Shown here: piece after piece, positions 7,018-23,881 of the stretch | How the letters are laid out: each line of letters opens with the position of its first letter | Position numbering within the stretch: the stretch's first letter is position 1 | Source of the DNA: Alphaproteobacteria bacterium | Lineage (GTDB): Bacteria > Pseudomonadota > Alphaproteobacteria > UBA8366 > GCA-2717185 | Direction of reading: 5' to 3' | Length of the DNA stretch: 35,752 nt | Assembly (NCBI GenBank): GCA_040905865.1 | Contig: JBBDQU010000035.1 | Span: forward strand, 1-35,752 | Position numbers and translations under genes: made by a program | Notes under the pieces: generated by a model | Databases searched by the model: none | The model's input: the letters and a program-made list of their open reading frames with translations, nothing else | What the model was told of the DNA's origin: nothing

Positions 7018-7034
7018 ATTTAAAGTGATAGAGC

Positions 7035-7093: not shown

Positions 7094-7296
7094 TAACCTT
7101 CGCGTTCCATGCGTTTGCGCATCAGTTTGCGGTGCCGCCGCACGGCTTCCGCCTGGTCGCGCGCCCGTCGCTCGGACGGCTTTTCATAATTTTCCCGCAG
7201 CCGCATTTCGCGGAAAATGCCTTCTTTCTGCATTTTCTTCTTCAGGACGCGCAGCGCCTGATCCACATCGTTGTTGCGTACGATGACTTCAACCAT
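7090..7296 (-). CDS. rpsU: 30S ribosomal protein S21
   Basis: A 68-residue basic ribosomal protein. Sequence landmarks are [13 protein letters not shown] near 4-16, K-K-K-M-Q-K-E-G near 19-26, Y-E-K-P-S-E-R-R near 37-44, and a Lys/Arg-rich tail ending R-E-G-Y. An AGGAG ribosome site lies eight bases upstream of the ATG at 7296, which rules out longer in-frame starts further upstream. S21 helps the small subunit in initiation and interacts near the anti-Shine-Dalgarno region. The stop codon TAG lies inside palindromic copy A. Confidence 0.96.
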
Positions 7297-7727
7297 CACG
7301 AACTCTCCTGAAGCCGACGGGTCGCGCCGACCGCCGCCAGGCGGCAAACCAAAACAGAAACCACGGGAACACCCCTGTTCCGCGGACAAGCAATGCCTGG
7401 CCGGATAACAGGCCGCCTCCCATGGCAATTGAATCGCGCCAGATTATACGAGCCGGCGCGGGCGTCAATCAGGATATTCATCAAAATAGCGGAAATACTG
7501 CTCTGGTCGTTTTTTCAAAGAGTCCCTTTTTAACAAGGAATTATGGGAAAATGTCGTCTTCTGGCCATCCCGGCGCCGTGAATCGCATGTCAGTTCGAAC
7601 TGACGAACGCCGCTGTATCGCCCGGGCCGGGCCACCAGTGCCGCCTGGTCCGCACGCGCCTGCTGGCAGAATGCTTCCGGATTGCAGAGTCCGCGCAAGA
7701 TGCATAACGATTGACAAAAGAAGAGAA
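7297..7727. other. Non-coding gap between rpsU and groEL
   Basis: About 430 bases without a convincing gene on either strand. The part next to rpsU probably carries its leader. On the minus strand a TATAAT box (7443-7448) lies 14 bases downstream of a TTGACG box (7463-7468), a short spacing that makes the promoter uncertain. A 16-base perfect palindrome sits at 7589-7604. Bases 7490-7560 are notably AT-rich. Nothing else could be supported. Confidence 0.5.
7589..7604. promoter_or_regulatory. 16-base perfect palindrome, candidate operator
   Basis: GTCAGTTCGAACTGAC is fully self-complementary and contains a TTCGAA core. It lies in the intergenic space upstream of the probable rpsU promoter. 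Its length and two-fold symmetry suggest a dimeric regulator site. No regulator can be named from the window. Confidence 0.35.
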
Positions 7728-7755
7728 AAGGGCCGCATCCTGCGACGCGGCCCTT
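7728..7755 (-). terminator. Intrinsic terminator of groES-groEL
   Basis: AAGGGCCGC and GCGGCCCTT form a nine-base stem around a ten-base loop. On the minus strand the stem is followed by a pyrimidine-rich tail (TTTCTCTTCTTTTG). It lies 27 bases past the groEL stop codon. Confidence 0.8.
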
Positions 7756-7782
7756 CATGCGGGTTCGGTTCCGCGCGGCGGA

Positions 7783-9746
<1,964 letters not shown>

Positions 9747-9929: not shown

Positions 9930-11243
9930 TCAGCCGCGCATGGTATTGGGCAGGTACAGGGCCAATTGCGGGAACAGGCAGAGTATCAGCAGCATGACCA
10001 GCCCGGCGCCGATATACGGCAGCAGGCCCTTGAAGATTTCCTCCAGCCGGACCCGTCCTTCCGATGCCCCCTGGACAACGAAGCAGTTGATGCCGACCGG
10101 CGGCGTTACGGCGCCGATTTCGCATAGCAGGACGACATAGATACCGAACCAGATCGGGTCGAATCCCAGCTCCATCATGACCGGATGGGTGATCGGCAGG
10201 CTGATCGCCAACAGCGGCGGTGCATCCATCATCATGCCGAGGAACAGGTACAGGATCGTCACCAGCAACACGATGACCCAGCGGTTGACATCGGCCGTGG
10301 TCAGGAAATCGCCGATGGCGCCCGCCAGGCCGCTGAGCGCCAGGAATTTGGAGAAGACCAGCGCCGTCACGATGATTCCGAAGATCATGGCTGTCGTCTG
10401 GACCGTATCGCTGACAACTTTGGGGATGCCGATGCCGCGGATGCTCCGCTGGCGGATGATGGCCATGATGAAGGTCGCCAGGGCGCCGATGGCCCCGGCT
10501 TCGGTCGGGGTGAATACGCCGGCATAAAGGCCGCCGATGATCCCGATGATCAGCAGCAGCAGCGGCCCCGCGAGACGCAGCGACCACATGCGTTCCCTGA
10601 AGGTGGACGTGTTGGGAATGAGCGGCGCCAGCGCCGGGTTGATGCGGACCCATAACCATGTGGCCAGGCCTAGCAGGAACGCAAAAACGAGGCCCGGAAA
10701 GACGCCGGCGATGAGCAGCGCGCCGATGCTGGATTCGGTCAGGATGCCGTAGACCACGACGAGCGCGGACGGCGGAATCATGACCGCCAGGGTCCCGGAA
10801 ATGGCGATGGACGCCGATGCGAGGCGGGGGTCGTAGCCCCGGTCCAGCATTTCCGGCAGGGCCAGCCTGGTGAACAGCGTGGTGGTGCCGATACTGGAAC
10901 CCGAGGCCGCGCCGAAGGCGGCGGCGCCGCCCGTTGTGGCGATGGCGAGCCCGCCGCGCATGCCGCCAAGCCATCGGGTCGCCGCCTCGAACAGGTCCTC
11001 GCCCAGGCCGGCGCGCATTGCAAAGAATCCCATCATTAGGAACATGGGGATGACACTGAAATGGAAACTGTGCGTCGTGTCGTAGAACACGGCGCGCAGC
11101 ACGCCCAGCGTGCCGTTCGGCCCGGCGATCACGCCCAGCCCGACCGTGCCGACCACGCCCAGCGCGACCATCACATTCATGCCCGAAAGGATGCAGACGA
11201 CCAGGGCGACGATCCCGAAGAGGCCGATTTCGATGCCGCTCAT
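9930..11243 (-). CDS. dctM: TRAP transporter large permease (DctM)
   Basis: A 437-residue inner-membrane protein with about 12 hydrophobic segments, the ion-coupled translocation subunit of a TRAP transporter. DctM landmarks are V-I-P-M-F-L-M-M-G near 65-73, A-A-F-G-A-A-S-G-S-S near 105-114, a M-I-P-P-S segment near 148, T-P-T-E-A-G-A-I-G-A near 275-284, and A-V-T-P-P-V-G-I-N near 380-388. The ATG at 11243 overlaps the dctQ stop by four bases (ATGA). Longer in-frame starts lie inside dctQ and are rejected. The partners dctQ and dctP lie directly upstream. Substrates of TRAP systems are mostly organic acids; this one is unknown. Confidence 0.94.
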   Translation of the reverse strand: MSGIEIGLFGIVALVVCILSGMNVMVALGVVGTVGLGVIAGPNGTLGVLRAVFYDTTHSFHFSVIPMFLMMGFFAMRAGLGEDLFEAATRWLGGMRGGLAIATTGGAAAFGAASGSSIGTTTLFTRLALPEMLDRGYDPRLASASIAISGTLAVMIPPSALVVVYGILTESSIGALLIAGVFPGLVFAFLLGLATWLWVRINPALAPLIPNTSTFRERMWSLRLAGPLLLLIIGIIGGLYAGVFTPTEAGAIGALATFIMAIIRQRSIRGIGIPKVVSDTVQTTAMIFGIIVTALVFSKFLALSGLAGAIGDFLTTADVNRWVIVLLVTILYLFLGMMMDAPPLLAISLPITHPVMMELGFDPIWFGIYVVLLCEIGAVTPPVGINCFVVQGASEGRVRLEEIFKGLLPYIGAGLVMLLILCLFPQLALYLPNTMRG

Positions 11244-11767
11244 GGTTCCTCTCCTGCCGGCGGCAATAATCCGCGTGTCACGAAGCAGTGGCGGATGGCG
11301 TCCAGCAGGTATTGAACGGAGATCAGCGCCGTGCCCAGGACGATCGCCGATTTCAGCGGCCAGATGGGCAACTGGATCACCCCCCATTCCTGTTCGTTCA
11401 TGCCGTAGGAACGGATCGCGTTGGTATATGCGGCGTAGGAACACCATGCGAAGAACAGCGCGCCGACGAACAGCACGATGATATACAGCCGGTGCTGAAC
11501 GGCGATCGGCAGGTGGCGCGTCAGCAGCGTGACCCGGATATGGCCGCGCTTGTACTGGGTATAGGCGAGCGACAGGAAGACGATCAGCACAAGCCCGGCT
11601 TCGGTCAGTTCAAAGGAGCCCTGTACCGGGGTATTGAAAAACTTGCGCATCAGGACGTTGGCGTCGATCAGCCACATGGTGGCGAAAGTGACCATGCCCG
11701 CCAGCACGGCGAAAAAGGTGACGACTTTGCCATAGGCCTGATACAGGCGCTCGAAACTGTCAGTCAT
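11240..11767 (-). CDS. dctQ: TRAP transporter small permease (DctQ)
   Basis: A 175-residue membrane protein with four hydrophobic segments (about 15-37, 50-72, 95-117 and 135-157), matching the DctQ fold (PF04290). The signature near 30-60 includes R-K-F-F-N-T-P-V-Q-G-S-F-E-L-T-E, and K-R-G-H-I-R-V follows near 78-84. It forms the membrane complex with DctM and overlaps that gene by four bases, indicating translational coupling. It is separated from dctP by 84 bases containing a strong GC hairpin (11801-11841). Confidence 0.92.
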   Translation of the reverse strand: MTDSFERLYQAYGKVVTFFAVLAGMVTFATMWLIDANVLMRKFFNTPVQGSFELTEAGLVLIVFLSLAYTQYKRGHIRVTLLTRHLPIAVQHRLYIIVLFVGALFFAWCSYAAYTNAIRSYGMNEQEWGVIQLPIWPLKSAIVLGTALISVQYLLDAIRHCFVTRGLLPPAGEEP

Positions 11768-11800
11768 ATCGGAATTCCGCCGTCGGTCGCGGTTGAGACA

Positions 11801-11841
11801 AACCCCGCCCCCGCAACCGGTGAAGGCGCGGGGGCGGGGTT
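11801..11841 (-). terminator. GC-rich hairpin between dctP and dctQ
   Basis: AACCCCGCCCCCGC (11801-11814) pairs perfectly with GCGGGGGCGGGGTT (11828-11841) around a 13-base loop. It sits 10 bases past the dctP stop and has no long T-tract. Such a hairpin could partially terminate, or protect the dctP message, so that binding protein exceeds membrane subunits. Confidence 0.65.
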
Positions 11842-11851
11842 CCAGGATGCT

Positions 11852-12874
11852 TTACTGGAATGCGAAATATTCGGCCAGTTCAGCCGCGGGCAGGCCGCTC
11901 TTGCTGGCCCGGTCGATCCAGTCCTGACGGATCTTCTTCACCGCGTCGCTCTTCACGGCTTCCGCAACCGGTCCTTCCGGGAAGGGCAGGACCTCGACGC
12001 CCGATTTCTTCCATTCCGCCAGAATTTCCTCGGTCAGGCGGCTCAGGACGTTGACGTAATGGACAACATATTCCTTGCCCAGGCCGTCCAGGATCGCCCT
12101 GGTCTGGTCGTCCAGCGCATCATAGCTGTCCCGGTTCATTCCAATGAAATGCCCCCAGTTGGCGCCGAGCTTCACCTTCACATAATACTTGGCCACTTCC
12201 TCGAACTTCCAGCCGCGGGCCAGCGTCACGCCGGTAGGCGTACAATCCAGAATGTTGCGTTCCAGCGCCTCATAGGCGTCGCTGGTCGTCATCGACACCG
12301 GGGTGCCGCCCAGTTGCTCGATCAGGCGCGGCAGGGCATGGCCATAGCTGCGGATGCGCAGCCCCTTGAAGTCCTCCGGCGTATTGATCGGTTTCACGCA
12401 CATGATCCCGTAGTCTTCAAGCGGGCGCCAGGCGATGATCCTTGTGTTGTACTTTTTCATTTCGTCGTCGAACTGCGGATACTGCTCGTACCACTGGATG
12501 AGCTTCTGGCCGAGTTCGATTTCGGAATGGGGCTGCGGCGAGAAGAAGGTGACGACGCCGTTGATCAGGAACTTGTCCTGGAAATACGGCACCACGATAT
12601 CGCCCAGATCGCCAATGCCTGTTTCCAGGGCATCGGGCACTTCCTTCACCTGGGCGACGCTGCCGCCCCAGAAGACCTTTATCGTATGCTTGCCGCCGGT
12701 CCGCTTGGCGAATTCATCGACGAACCACTGCAGCGTCAGCGAATGGGCGTCATTCGCGGCCTGCGGCTTGAAGGTGACATATTTCAGTTCCTTGGCGCCG
12801 GCACTGCCGGCCAGGACCATTCCGGCCATTGTCGCGGCGCCGGCAAGCAGCGCCAGTTTCTGTCGAATTGGCAT
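11852..12874 (-). CDS. dctP: TRAP transporter solute-binding protein (DctP)
   Basis: A 340-residue periplasmic binding protein with an N-terminal signal peptide (P-I-R-Q-K-L-A-L-L-A-G-A-A, cleavage near A-G-S-A-G-A). DctP features include F-K-G-L-R-I-R-S-Y near 160-168, a Q-L-G-G-T-P-V-S-M strand, and A-L-E-R-N-I-L-D-C near 198-206. The Cys-containing N-I-L-D-C-T-P-T-G strand parallels V-A-D-C-G-I-T-G in the orphan DctP at 1972-3030, so the two are related. A GGGAGGAAACA ribosome site fixes ATG 12874; an earlier in-frame codon would extend past it without a signal-like start. It is first of a dctPQM set, 167 bases after the SDR gene. Confidence 0.93.
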   Translation of the reverse strand: MPIRQKLALLAGAATMAGMVLAGSAGAKELKYVTFKPQAANDAHSLTLQWFVDEFAKRTGGKHTIKVFWGGSVAQVKEVPDALETGIGDLGDIVVPYFQDKFLINGVVTFFSPQPHSEIELGQKLIQWYEQYPQFDDEMKKYNTRIIAWRPLEDYGIMCVKPINTPEDFKGLRIRSYGHALPRLIEQLGGTPVSMTTSDAYEALERNILDCTPTGVTLARGWKFEEVAKYYVKVKLGANWGHFIGMNRDSYDALDDQTRAILDGLGKEYVVHYVNVLSRLTEEILAEWKKSGVEVLPFPEGPVAEAVKSDAVKKIRQDWIDRASKSGLPAAELAEYFAFQ

Positions 12875-13041
12875 TGTTTCCTCCCGAATTAACCGGTTTT
12901 CCGCCGGCATGTTTCCCACGTATCCGCGGCCCGGGCCTATTCCCGGTGCGATTTCCGAACCTCAACGATTAGCAGGACCGAAAGTCTGGCTGAACCGGGC
13001 CGCGCGCGCAACCTAAACGCATGCTGCATCGCGGCGAGCTT

Positions 13042-13791
13042 CTATTGCGCCAGGTAGCCTCCGTCCACGGCCAGTTCGGCGCCGGTGATATAGGATGCGT
13101 CATCGCTGGCGAGGAACAGGTTGGCGTTGGCGACTTCTTCTATTCGGCCTTCGCGGCCCATGGGGATTGCGGCCATCATCTTCGCCCGAATCGCCGGATC
13201 GGCGGTCTGTTGCGAAGTCCGCATCGGCGGCATCACCCCGGGATGGACGGAATTGACGCGGATTCCGTCGCGGGCGAACTGCACGGCGGCGGATTTCGTG
13301 GCGGTCCGGATGGCGCCCTTGGCGGCGTTATAGCCCATATGCACGACGCGCTGGCCGACGACGCCGGAGATCGACGAGATGTTGACGATCGCACCGCCGC
13401 CGGCTTGTCGCATGGCGGGGATCACGGCGCGCATGCCCAGGAACACGCCGCCGGCGTTGACGTGCATCTGCTGATTCCAGGTCTCCACGTTCAACAGGTC
13501 CGGCGTGCTGCCGCTGATCCCGGCATTGTTGACCAGGATATCGAGCCGGCCAAAGGCAGATAATGTTTCCGATACGACGGCGGCCCAGTCCGTCTCGCTG
13601 GTCACGTCGAGTTTCCGGAACATTGCCTCGCCGCCGGATGCGGCGATTTCCGCCGCGACGGTCTTGCCCTCGCTTACCATCAGATCCGCGACGACGACCC
13701 TGGCACCTTCGCGCGCAAACAGCCGCGCCGTCGCCGCCCCCATGCCGGACGCGGCGCCGGTGACGATGGCTACCTTGTTACCCAGCCGCAT
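13042..13791 (-). CDS. SDR-family NAD(P)-dependent oxidoreductase
   Basis: A 249-residue classical short-chain dehydrogenase. The Rossmann motif T-G-A-A-S-G-M-G is near 12-19. Asp38 at the end of strand two (V-V-V-A-D-L) favours NAD(H). N-N-A-G is near 88-91, the catalytic Ser in N-I-S-S-I-S-G is near 141, and Tyr/Lys in G-Y-N-A-A-K is near 154-158. It would oxidise a hydroxyl to a ketone or the reverse. A GGGAGGAAACAACA leader fixes the ATG at 13791. It lies 32 bases after the [2Fe-2S] gene in the same cluster, consistent with a step in the catabolism of an imported compound. Substrate unknown. Confidence 0.92.
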   Translation of the reverse strand: MRLGNKVAIVTGAASGMGAATARLFAREGARVVVADLMVSEGKTVAAEIAASGGEAMFRKLDVTSETDWAAVVSETLSAFGRLDILVNNAGISGSTPDLLNVETWNQQMHVNAGGVFLGMRAVIPAMRQAGGGAIVNISSISGVVGQRVVHMGYNAAKGAIRTATKSAAVQFARDGIRVNSVHPGVMPPMRTSQQTADPAIRAKMMAAIPMGREGRIEEVANANLFLASDDASYITGAELAVDGGYLAQ

Positions 13792-13823
13792 GTTGTTTCC
13801 TCCCTGTTTTGGGTTCCGTTCTT

Positions 13824-14165
13824 TTAATCCTGCGCCGCAAATTTTTCCTTCGGCGGCACCGTGTCGGTCGCGAGGTCGCGCAGCAGGCGCTTGTTGCCAA
13901 TCGGCCGAACGCTTACCGCGCCGCCGGTCAGCCGCGTGGTGCAGGCATATTCGGTCCTGCCTTCGACACTGACCACGCATTCCTTGCAGGAATTGGCGTT
14001 GATACAGCTATAGCGGAAGGCGAGCGTCGGGTCCGCATGGGCGCGGATCCAGATCAGCGCGTCCAGCAGCGACATGCCCTCGCGGTAGGGCACCGTGAAG
14101 ATATCGTCGCGCGGCGTCTCGCCCGCCGCGCCGCGCTGTATGGTGACGGCGACGGTGTCGGTCAT
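13824..14165 (-). CDS. Free-standing [2Fe-2S] subunit, SdhB/FrdB N-domain type
   Basis: A 113-residue ferredoxin-like protein resembling only the N-terminal domain of SdhB/FrdB. Cys54, Cys60, Cys63 and Cys75 give the pattern C-x5-C-x2-C-x11-C (C-I-N-A-N-S-C-K-E-C...Y-A-C). In SdhB/FrdB the first spacing is x4, so one residue is inserted in the cluster loop. The C-terminal [4Fe-4S]/[3Fe-4S] domain of SdhB is absent. The start overlaps the stop of the flavoprotein gene by four bases, strongly suggesting a two-subunit enzyme in which this protein passes electrons from the flavin to an unknown acceptor. Confidence 0.8.
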   Translation of the reverse strand: MTDTVAVTIQRGAAGETPRDDIFTVPYREGMSLLDALIWIRAHADPTLAFRYSCINANSCKECVVSVEGRTEYACTTRLTGGAVSVRPIGNKRLLRDLATDTVPPKEKFAAQD

Positions 14166-15889
14166 TCGGCGGCTCCCCGGCTTACCGTATCGATAGTGGC
14201 GCGGCGCACGGGTATGGTGTCCAGAACCAGTTCGTCGTCTCCCGCGCGCCGGATGCGCTGGTTATGCGCCTGCGCGGGGTCGGTCGCGGGCATGTCCTCG
14301 CGCTGGTGCGCGCCGCGGCTTTCGGTGCGGTTCAGGGCCGATACGGTGATCGCCTCCGCCGTGGCCAGCGCCGCGCGCAGGTCGAACCATTCCTGCACCC
14401 CCATAGCGAACGGGCCGGAATCGCGCGGGTGCAGGGCGGGCAGGTCGACGGACCGCATGTTCCGGATGCGGGACAACGCCGCCGTCAGCCGCTGCTCGTC
14501 GCGCGACAGGCCGACCTTGTCCCAGAGCAGGTTTTGCAACTCGCTGAATAATATCCCGAATGCCGGGCCGCTCGCGGTGTCGATGGGCATGGACAGACGC
14601 GTGATGTCGCTGACGGCTTTTTCCGCCCATGCCGCGTCCCATACCGGCGCGATACGGTCCCGCGCGGCGTTGCGGCCGGCGACCTCGCCGAATACCAGCG
14701 CCTCGGTGATCGCGTTGCCCGAAAGCCGGTTGGCGCCATTGGCGCCGCCGACAGCTTCGCCCGCCGCATAGAGGCCAGGCACATCCGACGCCATGCGTTC
14801 GTCCACACGGATGCCGCCCATGTGGTAATGCGCGATGGGGGCAACCTCGACCGGGCCCTGGGCCAGATCGATGCCGTTGCGGGCCAGCCTGTCGATGACG
14901 GGGCCGAAGGCGTCGCGCAAGGCGGCTTCACCAATATGTTCGAAGCTCAGATACGCGCCGCCATGCGGCGACCCGCGCCCGGCCGCCACTTCCCGGACGA
15001 TGGCGTAGGATGTGACGTCGCGCGGCGCGGTGTAGGCGCCGGAATCGGTTGCGCCGTAATGGTGGATGAATTCTTCCATATTGCCGTTCAGCAGCCGCCC
15101 GCCCAGCTTGTAGCGGAACGGGTCCCACATGATCGGATCCATGCCGACAAGGCGCGGCGCCAGATGCCCGATGGGGAAGAACTGCACGAATTCCATGTCG
15201 ATCAGCGACGCCCCGGCATCCAGCGCCAGGGCATACGATTCGCCGCCCATGTTCACCGAGGCGCTGTTGCGCCGGTACAGCCGGGTCAACCCGCCCGCCG
15301 CCAGGACCACCGCCCCCGCCGCGATGGTAACCGGGTTTCCTTTGGCCAGATCCAGCGCAACGGCGCCCGCAACGCGTCCGTCATGGGTAACCAGCGATGT
15401 AACGGAAAGGTTGCTGACGCGGGTGATGCCGTCGGTCTTCGCGACCTTCCCGCGCAGCGTCTTCGCAACCGCCGGACCGGTATTGAGGAAGTCGACAAAG
15501 ACGCAGCGCGGCCGGTCATGCCCCGGCGCCATGACCTGTTTCAGGTGGCCGTCCTCGCGCGTCCAGCCGACGCCCCATTCGTCCATCTCGCGGATGCGGT
15601 CCGGGCCTTCGCGGCACAGCAGGGCGGCCAGCACCTCGTCGCACAGCCCGCGCCCGGCGGTCAGCGTATCGGCATGGTGGCGGGTCCAGTGATCCGGCGC
15701 CTGCTCGCCCATCGCCACGGCGACCGTCATCTGCGCCATGATCGTCGCTCCGCCACGACCCACCAGGCTCTTGTCCAGCAGCAGCACCCGCGCACCGCCG
15801 CGCGCCGCGGCGATGGCGGCGTACATGCCGGCCCCGCCCGCGCCGACCACCAGCACGTCGGTTTCCAGATGGGTGTCAGCGTCAGCCAT
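14162..15889 (-). CDS. FrdA/SdhA-like FAD-dependent oxidoreductase
   Basis: A 575-residue flavoprotein of the fumarate reductase/succinate dehydrogenase superfamily. The FAD motif V-L-V-V-G-A-G-G-A-G is near 14-23, and the second signature is A-A-G-G-L-T-R-L-Y near 200. Near 350 is H-Y-H-M-G-G-I-R-V-D, followed by G-L-Y-A-A-G-E-A-V-G-G-A-N-G-A-N-R-L-S-G, the typical SdhA/AprA/NadB C-terminal region. The C-terminal helical domain is also present. ATG 15889 places the FAD motif at the usual distance; longer starts would overlap the preceding gene. It is seven bases from the upstream binding-protein gene and overlaps the [2Fe-2S] gene. Substrate unknown. Confidence 0.88.
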   Translation of the reverse strand: MADADTHLETDVLVVGAGGAGMYAAIAAARGGARVLLLDKSLVGRGGATIMAQMTVAVAMGEQAPDHWTRHHADTLTAGRGLCDEVLAALLCREGPDRIREMDEWGVGWTREDGHLKQVMAPGHDRPRCVFVDFLNTGPAVAKTLRGKVAKTDGITRVSNLSVTSLVTHDGRVAGAVALDLAKGNPVTIAAGAVVLAAGGLTRLYRRNSASVNMGGESYALALDAGASLIDMEFVQFFPIGHLAPRLVGMDPIMWDPFRYKLGGRLLNGNMEEFIHHYGATDSGAYTAPRDVTSYAIVREVAAGRGSPHGGAYLSFEHIGEAALRDAFGPVIDRLARNGIDLAQGPVEVAPIAHYHMGGIRVDERMASDVPGLYAAGEAVGGANGANRLSGNAITEALVFGEVAGRNAARDRIAPVWDAAWAEKAVSDITRLSMPIDTASGPAFGILFSELQNLLWDKVGLSRDEQRLTAALSRIRNMRSVDLPALHPRDSGPFAMGVQEWFDLRAALATAEAITVSALNRTESRGAHQREDMPATDPAQAHNQRIRRAGDDELVLDTIPVRRATIDTVSRGAAE

Positions 15890-15896
15890 GCAGGGC

Positions 15897-16820
15897 TCAG
15901 CCTTTCCAGAGGTCGCGATACCGCGTGGCGACGATTTCACCGTGCGGCACCGGCGCATCGGTCATGCCCATCATCGAGGCGAATCGGCTCATCCCGGTCG
16001 TGAATTCCTCGCTTACCGCCGGGTCGTAATAGGGCAGGTCCCGTTCGATCAGCCGGCGGATCAGCCCGGCTTCGGTTTCCGGGAACAGCCTGCGGCCGAC
16101 ATCGGTCGCGAGGCCCGGATCGGCTTTCAGCGCCTGTTGCGTCTTCACGATGGCGCGCACGGCGGCGGCGACCGCATCTGGCTGCTCGGCGATGAGCCTG
16201 TCCGTCGTGACCAGCGCGGGCTGGGTGAAATGGAAGGCGGCGGGCGGACCGTCGCCGCGCCGGACGTCCAGCACGATGCTGGCGACGCCGCTGGTAACGG
16301 CTTTCTCCGCCGCCATGCCGTTGGCCCACAGCCCGTCGACGGCGCCCGCCGCCAGCGCATCGACCGCCGCGACACCGAAGGAAACGCCCTTCGCGACGCC
16401 GCCGGGCAGGGGGCCGATTTCGATACCTTCGGCGTCCGTATCGATGCCGGCTTCCTTCAGCAACCCGCGCAAGCCCAGGTCGACGCCGTTCGCCGCGACG
16501 ATGCGCCGCCCGCGCAGCGCTGTCAGGTCGCCGCGTTCGACCTTCAGGTCGCTGCGCATCATCAGGAACCAGTACATGCCCTGCGCCAGCGAACAGACAA
16601 GTTTCGATCCCGCCCAGCGCGGAAAGGCCCAGAGCGGCGCATGGGCGGAGCCGGCGACGAAATCGACCTTGCCGTCGCGCAGCGCCTCGAAGGTCGCCGG
16701 GACCGGGTGGATCAGCTCAAGCGACATATCGAGCCCTTCCGCGCGAAAGAAACCGAGTTCGATCGCCGCGATGGCGGGGAAATATGAATTGGACACAAGG
16801 TCCGGCAGGGCGACTTTCAC
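15897..16820 (-). CDS. NMT1/THI5-like solute-binding protein without signal peptide
   Basis: A 307-residue protein with the periplasmic-binding fold of the NMT1/THI5/SsuA type: I-A-A-I-E-L-G-F-F-R-A-E-G-L near 17-30, G-K-V-D-F-V-A-G-S near 50-58, and L-R-G-R-R-I-V-A near 102-109. Residue one is a GTG (16820), supported by an AGGAAGGA ribosome site; an ATG five bases upstream is out of frame and hits a stop. There is no signal peptide, and no ABC permease or ATPase gene is nearby. The Cys-rich active site of true THI5 (HMP-P synthase) is absent. It may be a cytosolic ligand-binding or enzyme-like protein. Function not assigned. Confidence 0.75.
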   Translation of the reverse strand: MKVALPDLVSNSYFPAIAAIELGFFRAEGLDMSLELIHPVPATFEALRDGKVDFVAGSAHAPLWAFPRWAGSKLVCSLAQGMYWFLMMRSDLKVERGDLTALRGRRIVAANGVDLGLRGLLKEAGIDTDAEGIEIGPLPGGVAKGVSFGVAAVDALAAGAVDGLWANGMAAEKAVTSGVASIVLDVRRGDGPPAAFHFTQPALVTTDRLIAEQPDAVAAAVRAIVKTQQALKADPGLATDVGRRLFPETEAGLIRRLIERDLPYYDPAVSEEFTTGMSRFASMMGMTDAPVPHGEIVATRYRDLWKG

Positions 16821-16839
16821 GGCATGTTCCTTCCTGTCC

Positions 16840-18462
16840 CTAAACCGCCGCCGCCGGTAAAGGCGGTTTCCCCAGGATCATGTCGGCGGCTTTTTCGGCG
16901 ATCATCAGGGTCGATGCGTTCGTGTTCGCCGACGGCATCGCCGGCATGATCGAGGCATCGACGACGCGCAGCCCTTCGATGCCGTGCACCTTCAATTCGT
17001 CGCTGACCACCGTGCTGCGGTCGCCTTCCGGGCCCATGCGGCAGGTGCCCATCAGGTGGAAGGCGGTGGTGCCGCGCTGGCGGGCGAAGTCGATCAGCTC
17101 GTCGTCGGTCTGCAGCGGCGGGCCGGGATATTCCTCGCGGTCGTAGAACGGCGCCAGTTCCGGCGTTTCCAGCATCCTGCGGCCCAGCCGTATGCCGCCC
17201 AACAGCACGCGCCGGTCGGTTTCATGCGCCAGGTAGTTCGGCTGGATCGCCGGCTTGTCCATCGCGCTGGCGGATCTGGCGCGGACATAGCCCATGCTTT
17301 CCGGGCGCTGCTGCCAGGCGGCGACGGTCATGCCGGGGAAGTCATCAAGCTGCGACTGCACGCCTTCCCTGTAGCTGGCGGGGGTGAAGGTCATCTGCAG
17401 GTCGCCCTTGTCCAGCGCCTCGTGCGATTTCCAGAAGATATGCACCAGGGTCGGCGACAGGGTCAGCACGCCCTTGCGGAACAGCACGTATTTCGCGGCT
17501 TCCGCAACGAGGTTCAGCCCGCGCACCTGTTCGTTCACGGTCTTCTGGTTCTTAACCCGCGCAACAAGCCGAACCGGGTAATGGTCGCACAGGTTTTCCC
17601 CGACCGCCGGCAGGTCATGCAGGACCGGCACGCCAAGGTTCTGCAACAGCCTGGCCGGGCCGACGCCGGAAATCTGCAGCATCTGCGGCGAATTCACCGC
17701 CCCGCCGGAGAGGATGATTTCCTTGCGCGCGCGGATTTCCACATCCTGGCCGCCGCGCCTGTACAGGATGCCGACGGCGCGCTTGCCCTCGAACAGGATG
17801 CGCTGCACATGCGCTTTGGTGCGGACGTCCAGCGTCTGCCGGGATTTGGCGGGATGCAGGAAGGCGCGCGCGGCGCTGACCCGGCGGCCGTTGAACAGGG
17901 CGCGCTGGAAATAGCCGACGCCTTCCTGCGTCGCGCCGTTGTAGTCGGGGTTCAGCGGGATGCCCATCTTCACGACGCCGTCGATGAAGGCGTCGCAAAG
18001 CGGGTGCCGCCAGTCGATATCGGTGACGGTCAGCCCGCCGTCGCGGCCGCGATAGGTGTTGTCGCCCTTGCCGATACGGCGTTCGGTGCGCTGGAAATAG
18101 GGCAGGATATCCGCATAGCCCCAGCCGCGATTACCCCTTTGCGCCCAACTGTCGAAATCCATCCGCTGACCACGATTGTAGATATGCCCGTTGATCGAGC
18201 TGGAGCCGCCCAGGGTCTTGCCGCGCGGCGCATGGATGCGGCGGCCGGCGGTGCCTTCGCTGGGTTCGGCCTCGTACAGCCAGTTCACGGCGGGGTTGAC
18301 CAGCGTCTTCATGAATCCGGCGGGGATATGGATGAACGGGTTCCAGTCGACCGGCCCCGCCTCCAGTACGCAGACGGTGTCGCTGCCCGCCGACAGGCGG
18401 TTGGAGAGCACCGACCCGGCCGAGCCCGCGCCAATGACGATGTAGTCGAAGACGTCGGTCAT
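16840..18462 (-). CDS. GMC-family FAD oxidoreductase (choline dehydrogenase-like)
   Basis: A 540-residue flavoprotein of the glucose-methanol-choline family. The FAD motif I-V-I-G-A-G-S-A-G is near 8-16, with E-A-G near 34-36. GMC signature 1 is P-R-G-K-T-L-G-G-S-S-S-I-N-G near 79-92, and signature 2, G-G-A-V-N-S-P-Q-M-L-Q-I-S-G, is near 254-267. The C-terminal active-site segments are F-H-L-M-G-T-C-R-M-G and P-S-A-N-T-N-A-S-T-L. These enzymes oxidise alcohols to aldehydes or ketones. Length matches choline/alcohol dehydrogenases of the group. It overlaps the preceding FAD gene by four bases, so both are translated together. Confidence 0.93.
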   Translation of the reverse strand: MTDVFDYIVIGAGSAGSVLSNRLSAGSDTVCVLEAGPVDWNPFIHIPAGFMKTLVNPAVNWLYEAEPSEGTAGRRIHAPRGKTLGGSSSINGHIYNRGQRMDFDSWAQRGNRGWGYADILPYFQRTERRIGKGDNTYRGRDGGLTVTDIDWRHPLCDAFIDGVVKMGIPLNPDYNGATQEGVGYFQRALFNGRRVSAARAFLHPAKSRQTLDVRTKAHVQRILFEGKRAVGILYRRGGQDVEIRARKEIILSGGAVNSPQMLQISGVGPARLLQNLGVPVLHDLPAVGENLCDHYPVRLVARVKNQKTVNEQVRGLNLVAEAAKYVLFRKGVLTLSPTLVHIFWKSHEALDKGDLQMTFTPASYREGVQSQLDDFPGMTVAAWQQRPESMGYVRARSASAMDKPAIQPNYLAHETDRRVLLGGIRLGRRMLETPELAPFYDREEYPGPPLQTDDELIDFARQRGTTAFHLMGTCRMGPEGDRSTVVSDELKVHGIEGLRVVDASIMPAMPSANTNASTLMIAEKAADMILGKPPLPAAAV

Positions 18463-19853
18463 GGGCTCTTCCCGGCAATGGATTCCGCGGCCCGCAGGCC
18501 GGTGACGATGGCTTTGGACAATCCGCCGATATAGGCGGCGTTGGGGCCGCCCTCGAACCCGCCGGTGGACGATCCCGCCGCATACAGCCCGGCGATGGCG
18601 CCGCCGTCACGGTGCTGCGCCCTGCCGTCGCGGTCGATGGCGATACCGCCCATGGTATAGGTGATCCCCGCACAGACCGGGATCGCCCGGAAGGGCGCCG
18701 TCGCGATGGGTTGCGGTTCGGCGCGATGGGTGCTTCGCGTGGGGGACAGGGACGCCACCGAACCTGTCGCGATCGCCGCGTTGTATTCGGCCACTGTCCG
18801 TTGCAGCCCTTCGGCAGGCACGCCGATCTGCGCGGCCAGCCCGGCGAGGTCCGGCGCTTGCAGCACCGTGCCGCCGGCCTGTTCGAAGACCGGGTTCATG
18901 CAGGGCGGGTAACGGTTGTCGGCGGCGACGCCGGTCCAGACGGCCTCGTCGAAGATCGCGGTGGCGGCCAGCGGGTCGGCCAGTTTCGCCACTTCGTTCG
19001 CCATATAGACGCCGCCCAGCCCTTCATCGGTGAAACGGTTGCCGGATTTGTCGACCAGGATCGATGCCTGCGCGATCGGGTCGACGATCGGATAGGGCCA
19101 CAGCTGGTCGTTTTCGAAGGCCTGCTGACCCAGCAGATGCCCGTAGAACCGGTCCATGCCGACCAGCGCCGCGCCGGCGGCTTCCGCCATCAGCAGGCCC
19201 GCGCCGAAGCCGGTGCCGGCGCCCCGCTGGATCAGTTTTTCCGGCTGCGGGGAAATATACTTGCGCACCAGATCCGGGTTGGTCTGGAACCCGCCATCGG
19301 CGATCACCACCGCGCGCACCGCGATCCGTTCGCCGGAGTCGGTGACGACGCCTTTCACCGCGCCGTCCTCGACGATCAGTTCCGTCGCGCGCACGCCCCG
19401 GCGCAAGGCGCCGCCGCGTTTTTCCAGATTGGCGGCCAGGCGCCGCAGCGTCACGTCCGGACCACGGCCCTGCCAGTCCAGCCCGGCGGTGCGCCGGCGG
19501 GGCGGCGCCATGATCCAGCGCATGAATTCGAACTGGCCGCCCTTGATGAACTTGGCGCCTTCCTCGCGGATCCAGGCCAGCGCCCGCGCGCCTTCCTCCG
19601 CCAGCAGCCCGGCATGCGCGGTCGCGTCGTTCACGCCGGTCTGGCCCGTTACGGTGGCGAGGATATCCGCCACGTCCCTGGTCACATCGCGGAAGGCGAC
19701 ATGGACGATCCCGCCGGCGATGCGCGAATTACAGAAATAATCCGCGTCGCTGCCCTGTTCCAGCACCGTTGCCTTCAGCCCCAGCGCGAGGGCGCGGTTG
19801 GCCGCGCTCAGCCCCGCCAGCCCGCCCCCGATAATGATGATCTCGTCCGACAT
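18459..19853 (-). CDS. FAD-dependent dehydrogenase, FrdA/TcuA/ketosteroid-dehydrogenase-like
   Basis: A 464-residue flavoprotein with I-I-I-I-G-G-G-L-A-G-L-S-A near 5-17 and A-D-G-G-F near 190. Near the C-terminus is Y-T-M-G-G-I-A-I-D, then G-L-Y-A-A-G-S-S-T-G-G. This is the FAD-binding-2 family (PF00890), which includes tricarballylate dehydrogenase (TcuA), flavocytochrome fumarate reductase and 3-ketosteroid dehydrogenases. The catalytic His of soluble fumarate reductases is not obvious. It starts 21 bases after a small membrane-protein gene, like the tcuA-tcuB arrangement in which a membrane partner re-oxidises the flavoprotein, although the partner here is not TcuB-like in sequence. Substrate unknown. 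Confidence 0.85.
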   Translation of the reverse strand: MSDEIIIIGGGLAGLSAANRALALGLKATVLEQGSDADYFCNSRIAGGIVHVAFRDVTRDVADILATVTGQTGVNDATAHAGLLAEEGARALAWIREEGAKFIKGGQFEFMRWIMAPPRRRTAGLDWQGRGPDVTLRRLAANLEKRGGALRRGVRATELIVEDGAVKGVVTDSGERIAVRAVVIADGGFQTNPDLVRKYISPQPEKLIQRGAGTGFGAGLLMAEAAGAALVGMDRFYGHLLGQQAFENDQLWPYPIVDPIAQASILVDKSGNRFTDEGLGGVYMANEVAKLADPLAATAIFDEAVWTGVAADNRYPPCMNPVFEQAGGTVLQAPDLAGLAAQIGVPAEGLQRTVAEYNAAIATGSVASLSPTRSTHRAEPQPIATAPFRAIPVCAGITYTMGGIAIDRDGRAQHRDGGAIAGLYAAGSSTGGFEGGPNAAYIGGLSKAIVTGLRAAESIAGKSP

Positions 19854-19874
19854 TCGGATTTTCCTTTCCTGATG

Positions 19875-20099
19875 CTATTGCGGCAGCAGCATGTCGACGA
19901 TGATCCGCACCAGTTCGGCGAAGACCCGCACGCCGAAGCCGACCCCGATCCCGGCGGCGATCCCGGCGATGCCCCAGCTCCAGTGCCAGCCGCCCAACGC
20001 AATGCCTGCGGCGACCAGGATGACGGGCGCAAGTCCGGCGAGGACAGCCAGCACGTTCCCGTGCCGGACCATGAAGCCGACGGCCGGATACTGTTCCAT
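19875..20099 (-). CDS. Small two-helix membrane protein, unknown function
   Basis: A 74-residue hydrophobic protein not recognised as a named family. It begins M-E-Q-Y-P-A-V-G-F-M-V-R-H-G-N. Two membrane segments follow, about 16-36 (L-A-V-L-A-G-L-A-P-V-I-L-V-A) and 43-60, rich in Gly (I-A-G-I-A-A-G-I-G-V-G-F-G), and the tail is E-L-V-R-I-I-V-D-M-L-L-P-Q. A GGGAG ribosome site lies eight bases upstream of ATG 20099. Longer in-frame starts reach back into the regulator gene and read as non-protein-like, so they are rejected. Its place between the regulator and the FAD dehydrogenase suggests an accessory or quinone-coupling anchor, but that is inference. Confidence 0.7.
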   Translation of the reverse strand: MEQYPAVGFMVRHGNVLAVLAGLAPVILVAAGIALGGWHWSWGIAGIAAGIGVGFGVRVFAELVRIIVDMLLPQ

Positions 20100-20179
20100 T
20101 GTGAATTCTCCCAGAATTTGAACTGCCTGAAGTCCGAGTTTACGGAACGGCGCGACGGAAGCAATTCTTCCGCAACCTG

Positions 20180-20860
20180 CTAAGCGGTAAACAGCTCCGT
20201 AAACCGTCTTTCGCCATTCGCGGTGAATGTAACCACCCGGGAATCCGCCTGCCGTTCGGCCCAGCCGAGTTCGTAGAATCGGTTCAGGAAGGCGGTACCC
20301 AGCGATCCCGCCAGATGGGTACGGCGCGCGCTCCAGTCGAGACAGGATTTGCACAGCGGGCGGCGGCCCTTGCCCAGGGATGCGATATCGATTCCGAATT
20401 CCCGGGCGAAGGCGTCGCCCGCGGCGCTCAGGTCGAGGCCGTCCCCGGCGACGACGAGGTGCTTCCGGGCCAGCAGGTGATCGAACATCCGGACGCCGAA
20501 ATCCCCAGCAAGGTGGTTGTAGCAGACCCGCGCCTTGCGTAGCGCCGGATCCCTTGGGCCGGTGCGCGTGCGCGTATGCCCGCGCTTTGCCGCCAGCCCC
20601 ATCATGGCTTCCAGAACGCTGCCCACCTCGTCATCCGCCAGTGAAAAATAGCGGTGCCGCCCCTGTTTGCGCTGCCGCAGCAGCCCGGCGCTTTCCAGTT
20701 TGCCCAGATGGGAACTGGCGGTCTGCGCGGTGACGCCGGCTTCGGCGGCAAGCTCGCTGGCGGTCAGCGCCTTGCCGCTCATCAGCGCGGTCAGCATGTT
20801 GGCGCGCGCCGGATCGCCAATCAGCGATCCCAGTAATGCGATGTCCGGTCCTTCTTTCAT
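20180..20860 (-). CDS. ArsR-family regulator with C-terminal extension
   Basis: A 226-residue protein. Residues about 5-90 form an ArsR-type winged helix: L-G-S-L-I-G-D-P-A-R-A-N-M-L near 10-23, the recognition helix A-G-V-T-A-Q-T-A-S-S-H-L-G-K-L near 41-55, and R-K-Q-G-R-H-R-Y-F-S in the wing. About 130 further residues follow, with C-Y-N-H-L-A-G-D and C-K-S-C-L-D-W-S-A-R-R-T-H-L-A-G, a conserved Cys/His-rich extension seen in long ArsR-like regulators; it may bind metal or a ligand. No clear ribosome site precedes the ATG. It heads the minus-strand cluster and a palindrome (20869-20889) lies just upstream, so it probably controls itself and the downstream genes. Confidence 0.85.
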   Translation of the reverse strand: MKEGPDIALLGSLIGDPARANMLTALMSGKALTASELAAEAGVTAQTASSHLGKLESAGLLRQRKQGRHRYFSLADDEVGSVLEAMMGLAAKRGHTRTRTGPRDPALRKARVCYNHLAGDFGVRMFDHLLARKHLVVAGDGLDLSAAGDAFAREFGIDIASLGKGRRPLCKSCLDWSARRTHLAGSLGTAFLNRFYELGWAERQADSRVVTFTANGERRFTELFTA

Positions 20861-21238: not shown

Positions 21239-22150
21239 ATGATCAACTATCTGCCCGACATACTTGAATCCCCCGAAGCCGTGCAGCAGGCGACCGGTTT
21301 CGTCTTTACCGAGGGGCCGTTGTGGCACCCGGACGGGTTTTTCTATTTCAACGATATCCGCCCGGGCACGCTGTACCGGCTGACGCTGGGCGGGAAGCCG
21401 GAGGTGGTCCGCAATACCGTTGGCGGCAACGGGATGACCTTCGACCTGGAAGGCCGGCTGATCCATTGCGAGGGCGAAATGCACGCCGTTACCCGCACGG
21501 AGCATGACGGCACCGTCAGCGTGCTGACGGACAGCTACAAGGGCGGCCGGCTGAACCGGCCCAACGACGTGATCTGCCATTCCGACGGCAGCAACTGGTT
21601 CACCGACCCGTCCATGCGCATCCCCTTCGTCGACCGTGGGCAGCCGGGGCCGGAAGGAGACGCGCATGGCATCTATGGCGGCGCCCGCGTCTACCGTGTG
21701 ACACCGGCGGGTGACGTCACGCCCATCGTCGACGTGGAATATCCCAACGGCCTCGCCCTGTCGCCGGACGAACGCACGCTTTACATCGCCAATACACGAT
21801 GGACGCAATACGTCCACGCCATCGATTTCAACGATGACGGCAGCATCCGCCGCAAACGAATCTTCGCCGACCTCAGCATTGGCGACGGGCCGGGCATCCC
21901 CGACGGCATGAAGGTCGATGTGGAGGGCCGCGTCTACACCACCGGCCCGGGCGGCATCTGGGTGCACGAACCCGACGGACGGTTCCTCGGCATCATCCGC
22001 GTGCCGGAAATGGCGGTGAACATCGCCTTCGGCGGCGATGACCTGAAGACCCTGTTCGTCTGCGCCGTGACCTCGGTCTATACGCTGCGGATGACGACGG
22101 CGGGCAACCCGCATCCCTTCCACAAGTTCCATAACAAGAAGGGCGCGTAG
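21239..22150 (+). CDS. SMP-30/gluconolactonase-family protein
   Basis: A 303-residue six-bladed beta-propeller protein of the SMP-30/LRE family. The metal-binding Glu is in F-V-F-T-E-G-P-L-W near 21-29. N-R-P-N-D-V near 112-117 and D-P-S near 126 line the centre, Y-P-N-G-L-A-L-S-P-D lies near 171-180, and P-D-G-M-K-V-D near 221-227 contributes the Asp. Enzymes of this fold hydrolyse lactones using a divalent cation; here a lactone intermediate of the local pathway is a reasonable guess. There is no signal peptide, so it is cytosolic. It opens a plus-strand operon, and hyuB follows after six bases. Confidence 0.88.
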   Translation: MINYLPDILESPEAVQQATGFVFTEGPLWHPDGFFYFNDIRPGTLYRLTLGGKPEVVRNTVGGNGMTFDLEGRLIHCEGEMHAVTRTEHDGTVSVLTDSYKGGRLNRPNDVICHSDGSNWFTDPSMRIPFVDRGQPGPEGDAHGIYGGARVYRVTPAGDVTPIVDVEYPNGLALSPDERTLYIANTRWTQYVHAIDFNDDGSIRRKRIFADLSIGDGPGIPDGMKVDVEGRVYTTGPGGIWVHEPDGRFLGIIRVPEMAVNIAFGGDDLKTLFVCAVTSVYTLRMTTAGNPHPFHKFHNKKGA

Positions 22151-22156: not shown

Positions 22157-23881
22157 ATGGCCTTCGATCCCATCAGGCTGGAACTGATCCGCAACGGGCT
22201 GGAGATGATTTCCGACAACATGATGGTGTCGGTGGTCCGCACGGCGCGCTCCACGCTGGTCAAGAACAACCTCGACTTCTCCGGCGCCATCTGCGATGCG
22301 CAGGGCGACATGGTGGCGCAGGGGCTGGCGCTGCCTTCGCATCTCGGGGCCATCCCGCCGGCGCTCAAGGGCTGCCTCGCCTTCTTCGGCGACGAAGTCG
22401 GGCCGGGCGACATGCTGGCCACCAACGATCCCTATTCCGGCGGCAGTCACCTGAACGACATCTTCATGTTCCGGCCGGTCCATGTGGACGGCGAGCGGGT
22501 CTGCATCCTGTCGCTGATCCTGCACCACACCGACCTTGGCGGCCGCGTCGCCGGGGGCCAGGCGGGGGACAGCGACGAGATTTTCCAGGAAGGGCTGCGC
22601 ATCCCGCCGGCCAAGATCATGGAAGCCGGCAAACCCAACCGCACCCTGCTGAACGTGATCGAATACAATACCCGGGTTCCCGACCTGGTCATGGGCGACA
22701 TCCGCGCCCAGATGGCGGCGCTGATGGCGGCGGAGGCGGAAATCGTCAAATTCGCCGAACGGTACGGCGTCGGCGAACTGAAAGCCTATATGGGCGAGCT
22801 GATCGAATACGCGGAACGCATGGTCCGCGCCGCGATCCGCGACCTGCCCGACGGCACGGCGGAATTCACCGAATGGAACGACGATGACGGCGTCGGCGGC
22901 GGGCCGGTACGGCTGCACTGCCGGCTGACGGTAAAGGGCGATAAAGTGACCGCCGATTTCTCCGGGACCGACAGGCAGAAGGGCGGGGCGCTGCACACCA
23001 ACTATCCCTTTACCTGCTCGCTGACCTATGCGGCGCTGCGGGCGGTGCTGCCGCGCGAGATCCCGACCAATGCGGGGTTCTACCGCGCGATTGAGGTGAT
23101 CGCGCCGGAAGGAAGCTGGGTCAACCCGAAATTCCCGGCGGCGCTGGGCGCGCGGGGGCAGGGCGGCTACCGGGTGCGGACGCTGGTCAGCGGCGCGATC
23201 GCCGGGCTGCTGCCGCAACGCATGCCCGCCTGTCCCGGCGGGTCGGAATTCGGTCTGTCGGTCGCCGGGGCAAGGCCGGACGGCAAGCGCTTCGTGCATG
23301 TGGAATTCCATAACATGTCCGGTCGCGGCGGCAGCCCGGATGCCGACGGGCAGGATGCGGGTCCTTACTGGCTCGGCAACCTGTCCAACACGCCGGTGGA
23401 GGTGATCGAGGCGGAAAACCCGCTGCTGGTGGAGGAATACGGCTTCCTGCCCGACACGGGCGGACCGGGCCGGCATCGCGGGGCGCTCGGCCTGTCGCGG
23501 CAGTACCGGTTCCTGGCCGAGGAGGTGACGGTGCAGCAGCGTTCCGACCGCCACATGCACCCGTGCTGGGGGCTGCAGGGCGGCGGGGCCGGCGCGCTGG
23601 GCAGGTCGTTCTACGTCGACCGCGAGGGCAATCGTTCCGAGGCGCCGAGCAAGTTCGTGCGCCGCATGCGCCGCGACGAAATCTTCCGGTCGGAAATGCC
23701 CGGCGCCGGCGGCCATGGCGATCCCTTCGCCCGCGACCCGGCGGCGGTGGCGGAAGACGTGCGGCAGGAAAAAATCACGGTGGCCCATGCCCGTGCGGCC
23801 TACGGCGTCGCCGTCGATCCGTCCACCGGCGCGCCCGACCCCGCCGAAACGGCGCGGCTGCGCGCCACCGTATCCCCATAA
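22157..23881 (+). CDS. Hydantoinase B/oxoprolinase family subunit, copy 1
   Basis: A 574-residue HyuB-type (PF02538) protein. It begins D-P-I-R-L-E-L-I-R-N-G-L-E-M-I-S. A-T-N-D-P-Y-S-G-G-S-H-L-N-D is near 93-106, H-H-T-D-L-G-G-R near 126-133, and A-C-P-G-G-S near 360. HyuB subunits pair with ATP-binding HyuA in N-methylhydantoinase, 5-oxoprolinase, acetone and acetophenone carboxylases and caprolactamase. The protein is very similar throughout to the next gene. Start ATG 22157 has only a weak ribosome site and may rely on coupling with the upstream gene, six bases away. Confidence 0.92.
   Translation: MAFDPIRLELIRNGLEMISDNMMVSVVRTARSTLVKNNLDFSGAICDAQGDMVAQGLALPSHLGAIPPALKGCLAFFGDEVGPGDMLATNDPYSGGSHLNDIFMFRPVHVDGERVCILSLILHHTDLGGRVAGGQAGDSDEIFQEGLRIPPAKIMEAGKPNRTLLNVIEYNTRVPDLVMGDIRAQMAALMAAEAEIVKFAERYGVGELKAYMGELIEYAERMVRAAIRDLPDGTAEFTEWNDDDGVGGGPVRLHCRLTVKGDKVTADFSGTDRQKGGALHTNYPFTCSLTYAALRAVLPREIPTNAGFYRAIEVIAPEGSWVNPKFPAALGARGQGGYRVRTLVSGAIAGLLPQRMPACPGGSEFGLSVAGARPDGKRFVHVEFHNMSGRGGSPDADGQDAGPYWLGNLSNTPVEVIEAENPLLVEEYGFLPDTGGPGRHRGALGLSRQYRFLAEEVTVQQRSDRHMHPCWGLQGGGAGALGRSFYVDREGNRSEAPSKFVRRMRRDEIFRSEMPGAGGHGDPFARDPAAVAEDVRQEKITVAHARAAYGVAVDPSTGAPDPAETARLRATVSP

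Follow-up and report, generated by a model that had tools for sequence, protein, structure and literature searches.

A minus-strand flavoenzyme and TRAP gene cluster of an alphaproteobacterium, probably a composite of catabolic modules

Eleven genes, every one on the minus strand, occupy positions 9930-20860 of contig JBBDQU010000035.1 from an Alphaproteobacteria bacterium (GCA_040905865.1). The window, the 35,752 nucleotides analysed, is the whole contig (C35) of a 4.37-Mb assembly that is 100% complete with 1.62% contamination. In order of transcription the genes encode a long ArsR-type regulator of 226 amino acids (20180-20860; HTH_20, E 9.8e-14), a tiny, putatively two-helix membrane protein of 74 amino acids (19875-20099, the ATG at 20099 being its likely start), a FAD_binding_2 flavoprotein that we call FADa (18459-19853), a GMC-family alcohol oxidase or dehydrogenase (16840-18462), a signal-less binding protein of the NMT1/THI5 type, SBP, with a type-II periplasmic-binding fold and a GTG start (15897-16820; NMT1, E 5.2e-10), a FrdA-like flavoprotein with a remodelled substrate pocket (14162-15889), a 113-amino-acid 2Fe-2S subunit, FeS, equivalent to the N-terminal domain of FrdB only (13824-14165; Fer2_3, E 5.3e-16), a short-chain dehydrogenase/reductase (SDR) of 249 amino acids (13042-13791), and a TRAP transporter with all three components together, the binding protein DctP (11852-12874), the small permease DctQ (11240-11767) and the large permease DctM (9930-11243). 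This gene set, described in an initial annotation, is confirmed, with Pfam support for ten of the eleven genes (HTH_20/ArsR, FAD_binding_2, GMC N and C, NMT1, FAD_binding_2 with Succ_DH_flav_C, Fer2_3, SDR, DctP, DctQ and DctM, the last also by NCBIfam); the tiny protein has no Pfam match. A modular history of this locus is very probable. That it is a composite catabolic locus, assembled from modules and working by the mechanism proposed below, is a reading we favour with some reserve.

The tight spacing runs from the tiny gene through SDR. Gaps calculated from the coordinates are 80 nucleotides between ArsR and the tiny gene, 21 between the tiny gene and FADa, 19 between GMC and SBP, 7 between SBP and FrdA, 32 between FeS and SDR, 167 between SDR and DctP, and 84 between DctP and DctQ. 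Four-base overlaps, as previously described, join FADa to GMC, FrdA to FeS and DctQ to DctM. The short gaps of the initial annotation hold from the tiny gene to SDR; the 167 nucleotides before dctP depart from that description and would leave room for a separate dctPQM transcript. Scans for promoters (2 found, 1.9 expected) and terminators (10 found, 8.4 expected) were at chance, so the operon structure is judged from spacing. Genes that we named groES-groEL by eye lie 183 nucleotides beyond DctM. At the other end a 378-bp intergenic region separates ArsR from a divergent lactonase operon, and an operator search of this region found 6-bp palindromes only.

The FrdA-like gene has one constant companion. 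Scanning genome contigs with the FrdA-like protein gave 303 encoding stretches, and the best 80 loci, at 60-83% identity, were analysed. A 2Fe-2S gene follows FrdA directly on the same strand in all 80, at a median distance of 48 nucleotides, and FeS itself recurs in 79 at our thresholds of at least 45% identity and at least 60% coverage. The only other window proteins to recur at these thresholds are SBP, in two loci (L057 and L115), and SDR, in one (L057); 39 of the 80 loci span at least 5 kb on both sides, and elsewhere the absence of a neighbour is unproved. Weak matches also occur in these loci, to SDR in seven more (31-39%), to FADa in five (26-28%) and to GMC in three (about 31%). Elsewhere the neighbours of the pair are a molybdopterin hydroxylase, UbiD, Rieske oxygenases, HpaB, FAD_binding_3 and a Lyase_1 protein (representatives were checked with Pfam); of 90 loci, some of them the same place twice, 11 have a member of the UbiD family and 19 one of the main molybdopterin family. 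Neighbours were mostly named by eye from their N-termini, some with Pfam checks, and the UbiD, second GMC, sulfatase-like and GGDEF proteins by NCBIfam. Given such varied neighbours, the FrdA-FeS pair is a portable part of many gene neighbourhoods.

Records carrying the pair are titled as alpha-, beta-, gamma- and deltaproteobacterial and acidobacterial metagenome-assembled genomes (MAGs) or isolates, and some titles may be wrong; the named records nearest in FrdA are alphaproteobacterial MAGs. Two loci titled Bordetella parapertussis (L076) and Klebsiella pneumoniae (L110) bear names that are doubtful for environmental MAG contigs. One acidobacterial MAG (L115, 7410-13565) combines FrdA-FeS and a member of the UbiD family with two binding proteins that lack a signal, the second of them recognised by eye. 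FrdA is found at E<=1e-80 in 11 of 59 relatives, the window's own genome counted. In a class-wide sample 15 of 385 genomes match, again including its own, 11 of the other 14 at 61-63% and three at only about 38%. A plasmid search with FrdA returned nothing at E<=1e-60.

The FrdA-like protein contains both domains required of a fumarate reductase or succinate dehydrogenase, FAD_binding_2 and Succ_DH_flav_C. Aligned to E. coli FrdA and solved SdhA, its pocket reads QFFPI in place of QYHPT and MWDP in place of MTEG; the His of QxHPT and the Thr-Glu of MTEG, which belong to one of the two dicarboxylate sites, are replaced, at positions at least 97% conserved over 79 rows of the family alignment. 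The QFFPIGHLAPRL-GMDPIMWDPFRYK stretch of the family is mostly conserved at 97% or above in the same rows. Kept are the FR of DPFRYK (after MWDP), the Arg of PRD, the His of HYxMGG and the Arg of GANRL. The His of RSHT, presumably the site of covalent FAD attachment, is absent. All 25 NCBIfam models listed for the protein score under their cut-offs (best 368 against 718), TfrA among them at 367.7 against 718. FeS keeps its four Cys, each at least 97% conserved over 80 rows, and consists of Fer2_3 only, without the second ferredoxin half of FrdB/SdhB; it scores 58.3 bits against the dhsB cut-off of 88. Residue roles in the dicarboxylate sites partly follow a study of urocanate reductase, UrdA (PMC7921117). 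On these patterns, there is an even chance that FrdA-FeS is an enoate oxidoreductase whose substrate carries a single carboxylate and is non-polar at its other end.

The tiny gene, FADa and GMC form a second module, which we call module A. GMC has matches of at least 69% in eleven other relatives, some of them partial; ten loci were examined, that of G004, truncated by its contig start, not being among them. Tiny-FADa lies directly before GMC in four of the ten, all genomes of the same family (G001, G003, G005 and G007; G and C numbers are our handles for genomes and contigs, L numbers for loci). The G010 contig has FADa before GMC and breaks off within FADa, that of G009 starts at GMC, and in the remaining four (G002, G006, G035 and G053) no FADa is found near GMC. 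A gene for a benzoylformate-decarboxylase (BFD)-like thiamine diphosphate enzyme, about 70% identical to the window gene at 3121-4836 (minus strand, outside the cluster; PRK07092, 411 bits against a cut-off of 493), is found no more than about 3.5 kb from GMC in G005, G009 and G010. The G005 locus also has a UbiD-family decarboxylase gene (L189, 6388-8043) between BFD and a second GMC gene, and in L196 (10314-11833, contig C14 of G003) a GMC relative is broken into three pieces with stops, perhaps through decay or through misassembly. The closest solved relative of the window GMC protein is the chloramphenicol-inactivating oxidoreductase 8b7s (367 bits). Choline dehydrogenase BetA was rejected as an identity for it, at 501.7 bits against 732.1.

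The tiny protein accompanies FADa outside this group as well. Its AlphaFold model has two long helices (mean pLDDT 79.2, pTM 0.55), and in two other genomes of the class short open reading frames directly upstream of FADa relatives encode proteins 34% identical to it. A profile of seven tiny proteins was run on 1307 open reading frames from 13 loci, two of which are the same place and two of which are DctP loci without FADa. It gave seven matches, all adjoining FADa; two were profile members and five were independent plasmid loci, in Azospirillum brasilense, Cupriavidus necator NH9 and N-1, Rhizobium gallicum and Neorhizobium petrolearium. These five are among seven plasmid loci with FADa that were searched, and the profile was built without any of the seven; of nine such plasmid records, two (Azospirillum argentinense) were left out. 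The profile matched only the window's own genome among 359 genomes of the phylum, and among 347 of the class its own and the two already in the profile. FADa itself is nearest to the TcuA (tricarballylate dehydrogenase) model, at 146.2 bits against a cut-off of 369, and was rejected as TcuA on that score; its matches also include 3-ketosteroid-dehydrogenase models and, in the PDB, 3-ketosteroid dehydrogenase. FADa is probably a second dehydrogenase, perhaps tethered to the membrane by the tiny protein.

Both modules meet in the congener G003. There a single contig carries tiny-FADa-GMC and, after about 15 kb, SBP-FrdA-FeS-SDR, which is also the window's order; the second set is intact at 80-87% identity (SDR 83%). 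The contig flank, with PPase-, Bax- and EthD-like genes named by eye and a BFD relative of 92% truncated by the end of L057, matches window positions 3121-6973. In this same locus a GGDEF protein (6996-8981), whose long N-terminal part opens NMT1-like by eye, is encoded directly upstream of SBP-FrdA. In the congener G001, SBP-FrdA is present as far as the contig end.

The absence of a signal peptide from SBP, noted earlier, holds by eye. From the upstream stop down to the GTG at 16820 there is no ATG, GTG or TTG, the product begins at the fold, and seven aligned SBP sequences, the window's included, share this start with no visible leader (the alignment omits the second copy of G146, which has an internal stop, and the L115 sequence). 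The AlphaFold model (pLDDT 83.5) is closest in Foldseek to the thiamin-binding 4nmy and to Thi5 (4esx), and also matches SsuA and, more weakly, DszB; a sequence search of the PDB gave no match at E<=0.01. Relatives occur in 3 other class genomes (of 288) at 42-65% identity, with no FrdA within the 15-20 kb examined. SBP is flanked by GMC and FrdA rather than by ABC permease or ATPase genes, and together with the missing signal peptide this favours a role in the cytoplasm, as sensor or enzyme, over that of an ABC receptor. An enzyme like 4,5-dihydroxyphthalate decarboxylase is offered as a guess.

The remaining parts are distributed differently. The regulator belongs by score to the ArsR/SmtB winged-helix subfamily (HTH_metalloreg, 63.2 against 55) and has matches at E<=1e-30 in 30 of 58 other relatives; at 14 other ArsR loci, viewed over about 1.5 kb on each side, tiny-FADa adjoins it only in G001. 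DctP, whose N-terminus by eye carries a hydrophobic stretch like that of a signal peptide, is without a match at E<=1e-70 in the 58 other relatives. Two plasmids encode relatives of 53% and 48%; on one, from Martelella, the TRAP genes are followed by genes for a glutathione S-transferase, a carboxymuconolactone-decarboxylase-family protein, an amidohydrolase and an SDR, with no FrdA or FADa following, and the other record carries no annotation. The G+C contents of DctP (0.596) and DctQ (0.589), lower than those of DctM (0.643) and of SDR to FADa (0.649-0.691), would suit a separate origin and are not proof of one. A second DctP-family binding protein is encoded at 1972-3030, by eye with no DctQ or DctM gene adjoining.

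The divergent plus-strand set of the initial annotation is real by Pfam: an SMP-30/gluconolactonase-like lactonase (SGL, 21239-22150; E 6.8e-46, best PDB match 3dr2), HyuB copy 1 (22157-23881), HyuB copy 2 (23899-25626, start estimated from alignment), HyuA (25623-27731) and an Amidohydro_2 protein (27809-28813, start approximate). The tandem HyuB copies (22157-25626; Hydantoinase_B) are 70% identical. Ten other relatives encode HyuB at 62% identity or more. In the 3.4-20 kb examined, every one of them has a single HyuB along with all or part of HyuA, and nothing matches tiny, FADa, ArsR, FrdA, SGL or Amidohydro_2 beyond 60 bits and 28% identity; in L197 a relative of GMC, at 43%, is nearby. 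No HyuB was found at E<=1e-150 in any of the three congeners. The Amidohydro_2 protein is closest among solved structures to an unnamed metal-dependent hydrolase (2f6k) and then to decarboxylases of the ACMSD and uracil-5-carboxylate type.

Other genes occupy this position in the siblings. Divergent to module A stand SDR267 and part of OppA in G001, and SDR267, OppA and OppB, with an MFS gene between, in G005; in G003 SDR267 is in two pieces before the contig end. The window's genome keeps its own SDR-Opp island on contig C45 (SDR 69%, OppA 67-71%, OppB 84%), where three tandem OppA-like genes (67-71% to OppA of G005; L213, 10671-16129) follow SDR267 and precede OppB. The lactonase-Hyu operon occupies the slot given to the SDR-Opp island in two siblings and is therefore a lineage-specific neighbour in the genomes sampled; membership of the same pathway is unsupported.

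We propose that module A, with the BFD-like gene nearby, and module B, the FrdA-FeS pair, had separate histories and became contiguous in this lineage. SBP and SDR would have joined module B in part of the genus, the lineage-specific importer dctPQM would have been added downstream, and the lactonase-Hyu operon would have come to stand in the place of the siblings' SDR-Opp island. In the working locus, the TRAP transporter may import an organic acid, GMC and SDR may oxidise its alcohol groups, and FADa and FrdA-FeS may introduce or remove C=C bonds. FrdA-FeS would be a soluble enoate oxidoreductase exchanging hydride between FAD and a substrate whose one carboxylate fits the kept sites and whose other end is not a carboxylate and is probably bulky or aromatic, given Phe and Trp in place of His and Thr. 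FeS has only the 2Fe-2S half of FrdB, so the electrons would have to pass through a single cluster to a separate carrier, presumably a soluble one because no second FrdB half is present and no anchor gene adjoins in the window. Electrons from FADa may instead reach the membrane through the 74-amino-acid two-helix partner, and SBP would stay in the cytoplasm, where it would sense a ligand or act as an enzyme instead of serving as an ABC receptor.

Several observations weigh against this proposal. Close spacing and three four-base overlaps point to an operon in the present genome, perhaps one for a single substrate. Some parts do meet occasionally in FrdA loci: a piece of GMC (54-55%, between a fifth and a quarter of full length) lies immediately before FrdA-FeS in L087, L108 has an ArsR of 40-41%, L115 an SBP of 53%, and DctM-like genes occur in five of the 80 loci and Hyu genes in three (L098, L104 and L107), at 26-35% identity. 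In the congener G002 (L062, a 3.5-kb contig; FrdA 73-74%) there is no SBP before FrdA-FeS and no SDR after it, so the SBP-FrdA-FeS-SDR set is not genus-wide. The gene divergent to tiny-FADa in G007 is an MFS gene, with no SDR267 match within 5 kb beyond it. In a rough alignment with flavocytochrome c fumarate reductase (75 bits), FADa keeps the QAHPT His and lacks most carboxylate residues (the Arg of TTRDK, the Arg of GANRL, and the second His of HHTMGG, replaced by Tyr), and activity on fumarate-like acids is therefore not expected of it. Lastly, the tiny profile has no match in G251, one of three class genomes with FADa, nor at the Paraburkholderia and Variovorax plasmid loci; the Variovorax plasmid has an 82-amino-acid open reading frame similar by eye, and Paraburkholderia has none.

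The initial annotation saw in the cluster and its divergent operon a complete uptake and degradation route. Its functional flavour, uptake with redox catabolism, is supported; the route as one unit is not, since the synteny search shows the parts largely scattered in relatives, what survives of colinearity being the module order of G003 and a flank that resembles the window's up to the BFD-like gene. One form of this idea, in which an ArsR-controlled, operon-encoded pathway was completed recently and combines TRAP import, alcohol oxidation, desaturation, and lactone or lactam opening by the divergent operon, is rather unlikely. Contiguity, the overlaps, the shared 378-bp region and the A-then-B order of G003 would all follow from it, but in the relatives examined Hyu, TRAP and ArsR genes do not stand beside the other parts, ArsR of G001 excepted, the 167-nucleotide gap precedes dctP, and no convincing operator or promoter was found. 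We found no described pathway with this gene set, or with the FrdA-FeS pair, in the open-access literature, which is weak evidence of absence.

Two further readings start from the flavoproteins. FrdA-FeS could be an ordinary succinate dehydrogenase or fumarate reductase paralogue using C4-dicarboxylates brought in by TRAP, as its FAD_binding_2, Succ_DH_flav_C and Fer2_3 domains, the retained catalytic Arg and one carboxylate site, and the DctP name would suggest. The replaced second site (His to Phe, Thr to Trp, Glu to Asp), the missing His, presumably that of covalent FAD attachment, the lack of a second ferredoxin half and of anchor genes in the cluster, and the uniformly sub-threshold NCBIfam scores make this very improbable. 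Tiny-FADa could also be a 3-ketosteroid- or tricarballylate-dehydrogenase-like enzyme with a tiny membrane anchor, in a locus degrading a steroid-like or alicyclic compound. Besides the TcuA and 3-ketosteroid dehydrogenase matches of FADa, SDR matches the trans- and cis-4-hydroxycyclohexanecarboxylate dehydrogenase models, but at 221 and 220 bits against cut-offs of 400 and 350, and FADa is likewise far under that of TcuA. SDR and FAD_binding_2 are generic, and among the 25 models listed SDR passes only the broad PRK07231 subfamily cut-off (241 bits against 215), so we regard this alternative as unlikely.

Beyond the composite locus itself, it is possible, and we say so tentatively, that two uncharacterised redox systems are present here: FrdA-FeS as a widespread soluble two-subunit enoate reductase or dehydrogenase with the 2Fe-2S half only and a one-carboxylate pocket, found in many aromatic- or acid-degrading clusters, and FADa-tiny as a minimal flavin dehydrogenase:quinone oxidoreductase pair of alpha- and betaproteobacteria. 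FrdA-FeS resembles a succinate dehydrogenase or fumarate reductase in its domains, yet its pocket residues point elsewhere. With 303 encoding stretches, one biochemical assignment would inform hundreds of genes. Tiny-FADa, if confirmed, would be a case of a flavin dehydrogenase with a very small membrane partner. The patchwork history is also a warning not to take a contiguous operon for a finished pathway.

Known systems resemble the parts of this locus to differing degrees. The window Hyu genes share Hydantoinase_A and Hydantoinase_B domains with CapAB and HyuAB, but have two HyuB copies, a lactonase and an amidohydrolase alongside, and scores below the caprolactamase cut-off of 1000 (CapA 546.8 for HyuA, CapB 291.2 for HyuB copy 1). 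SBP shares the fold of the THI5/SsuA/DszB family, and two of its structural matches, Thi5 and DszB, are enzymes; identity is 10-18% among the matches listed, SBP has a single Cys, and by Pfam the cluster has no permease or ATPase gene for it. In Salmonella, TcuA pairs with TcuB, an FADH2:quinone oxidoreductase (PMC10468695). TcuA is the best named model for FADa, and TcuA/TcuB is likewise a flavin dehydrogenase with a separate partner passing electrons to quinone, so by analogy the tiny protein may be a minimal TcuB counterpart; unlike that pair, FADa falls far under the TcuA cut-off and its partner is a 74-residue protein outside any Pfam family.

FrdAB-SdhAB and TfrAB are like FrdA-FeS in encoding an FAD subunit and a 2Fe-2S domain in adjacent genes, and differ from it in that its iron-sulfur subunit is the 2Fe-2S half only, its pocket residues are changed, and its scores lie under the cut-offs. 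The nearest parallel to the pocket is UrdA. As described in PMC7921117, Arg560, His520 and Arg411 of UrdA serve, as they do in fumarate reductases, to hold the carboxylate and supply the proton, a Tyr replaces the His that holds fumarate's second carboxylate, the Glu is not conserved, and changing the Tyr to His (Y373H) yields some fumarate activity. The FrdA-like protein likewise keeps, as judged by alignment, the one-carboxylate residues and the proton-donor Arg and replaces the second-carboxylate His, and the window family appears by this analogy to repeat the pocket logic of UrdA with Phe instead of Tyr. Unlike UrdA, it has the C-terminal domain of SdhA/FrdA and a separate 2Fe-2S subunit, with no FMN domain by Pfam and no signal peptide by eye.

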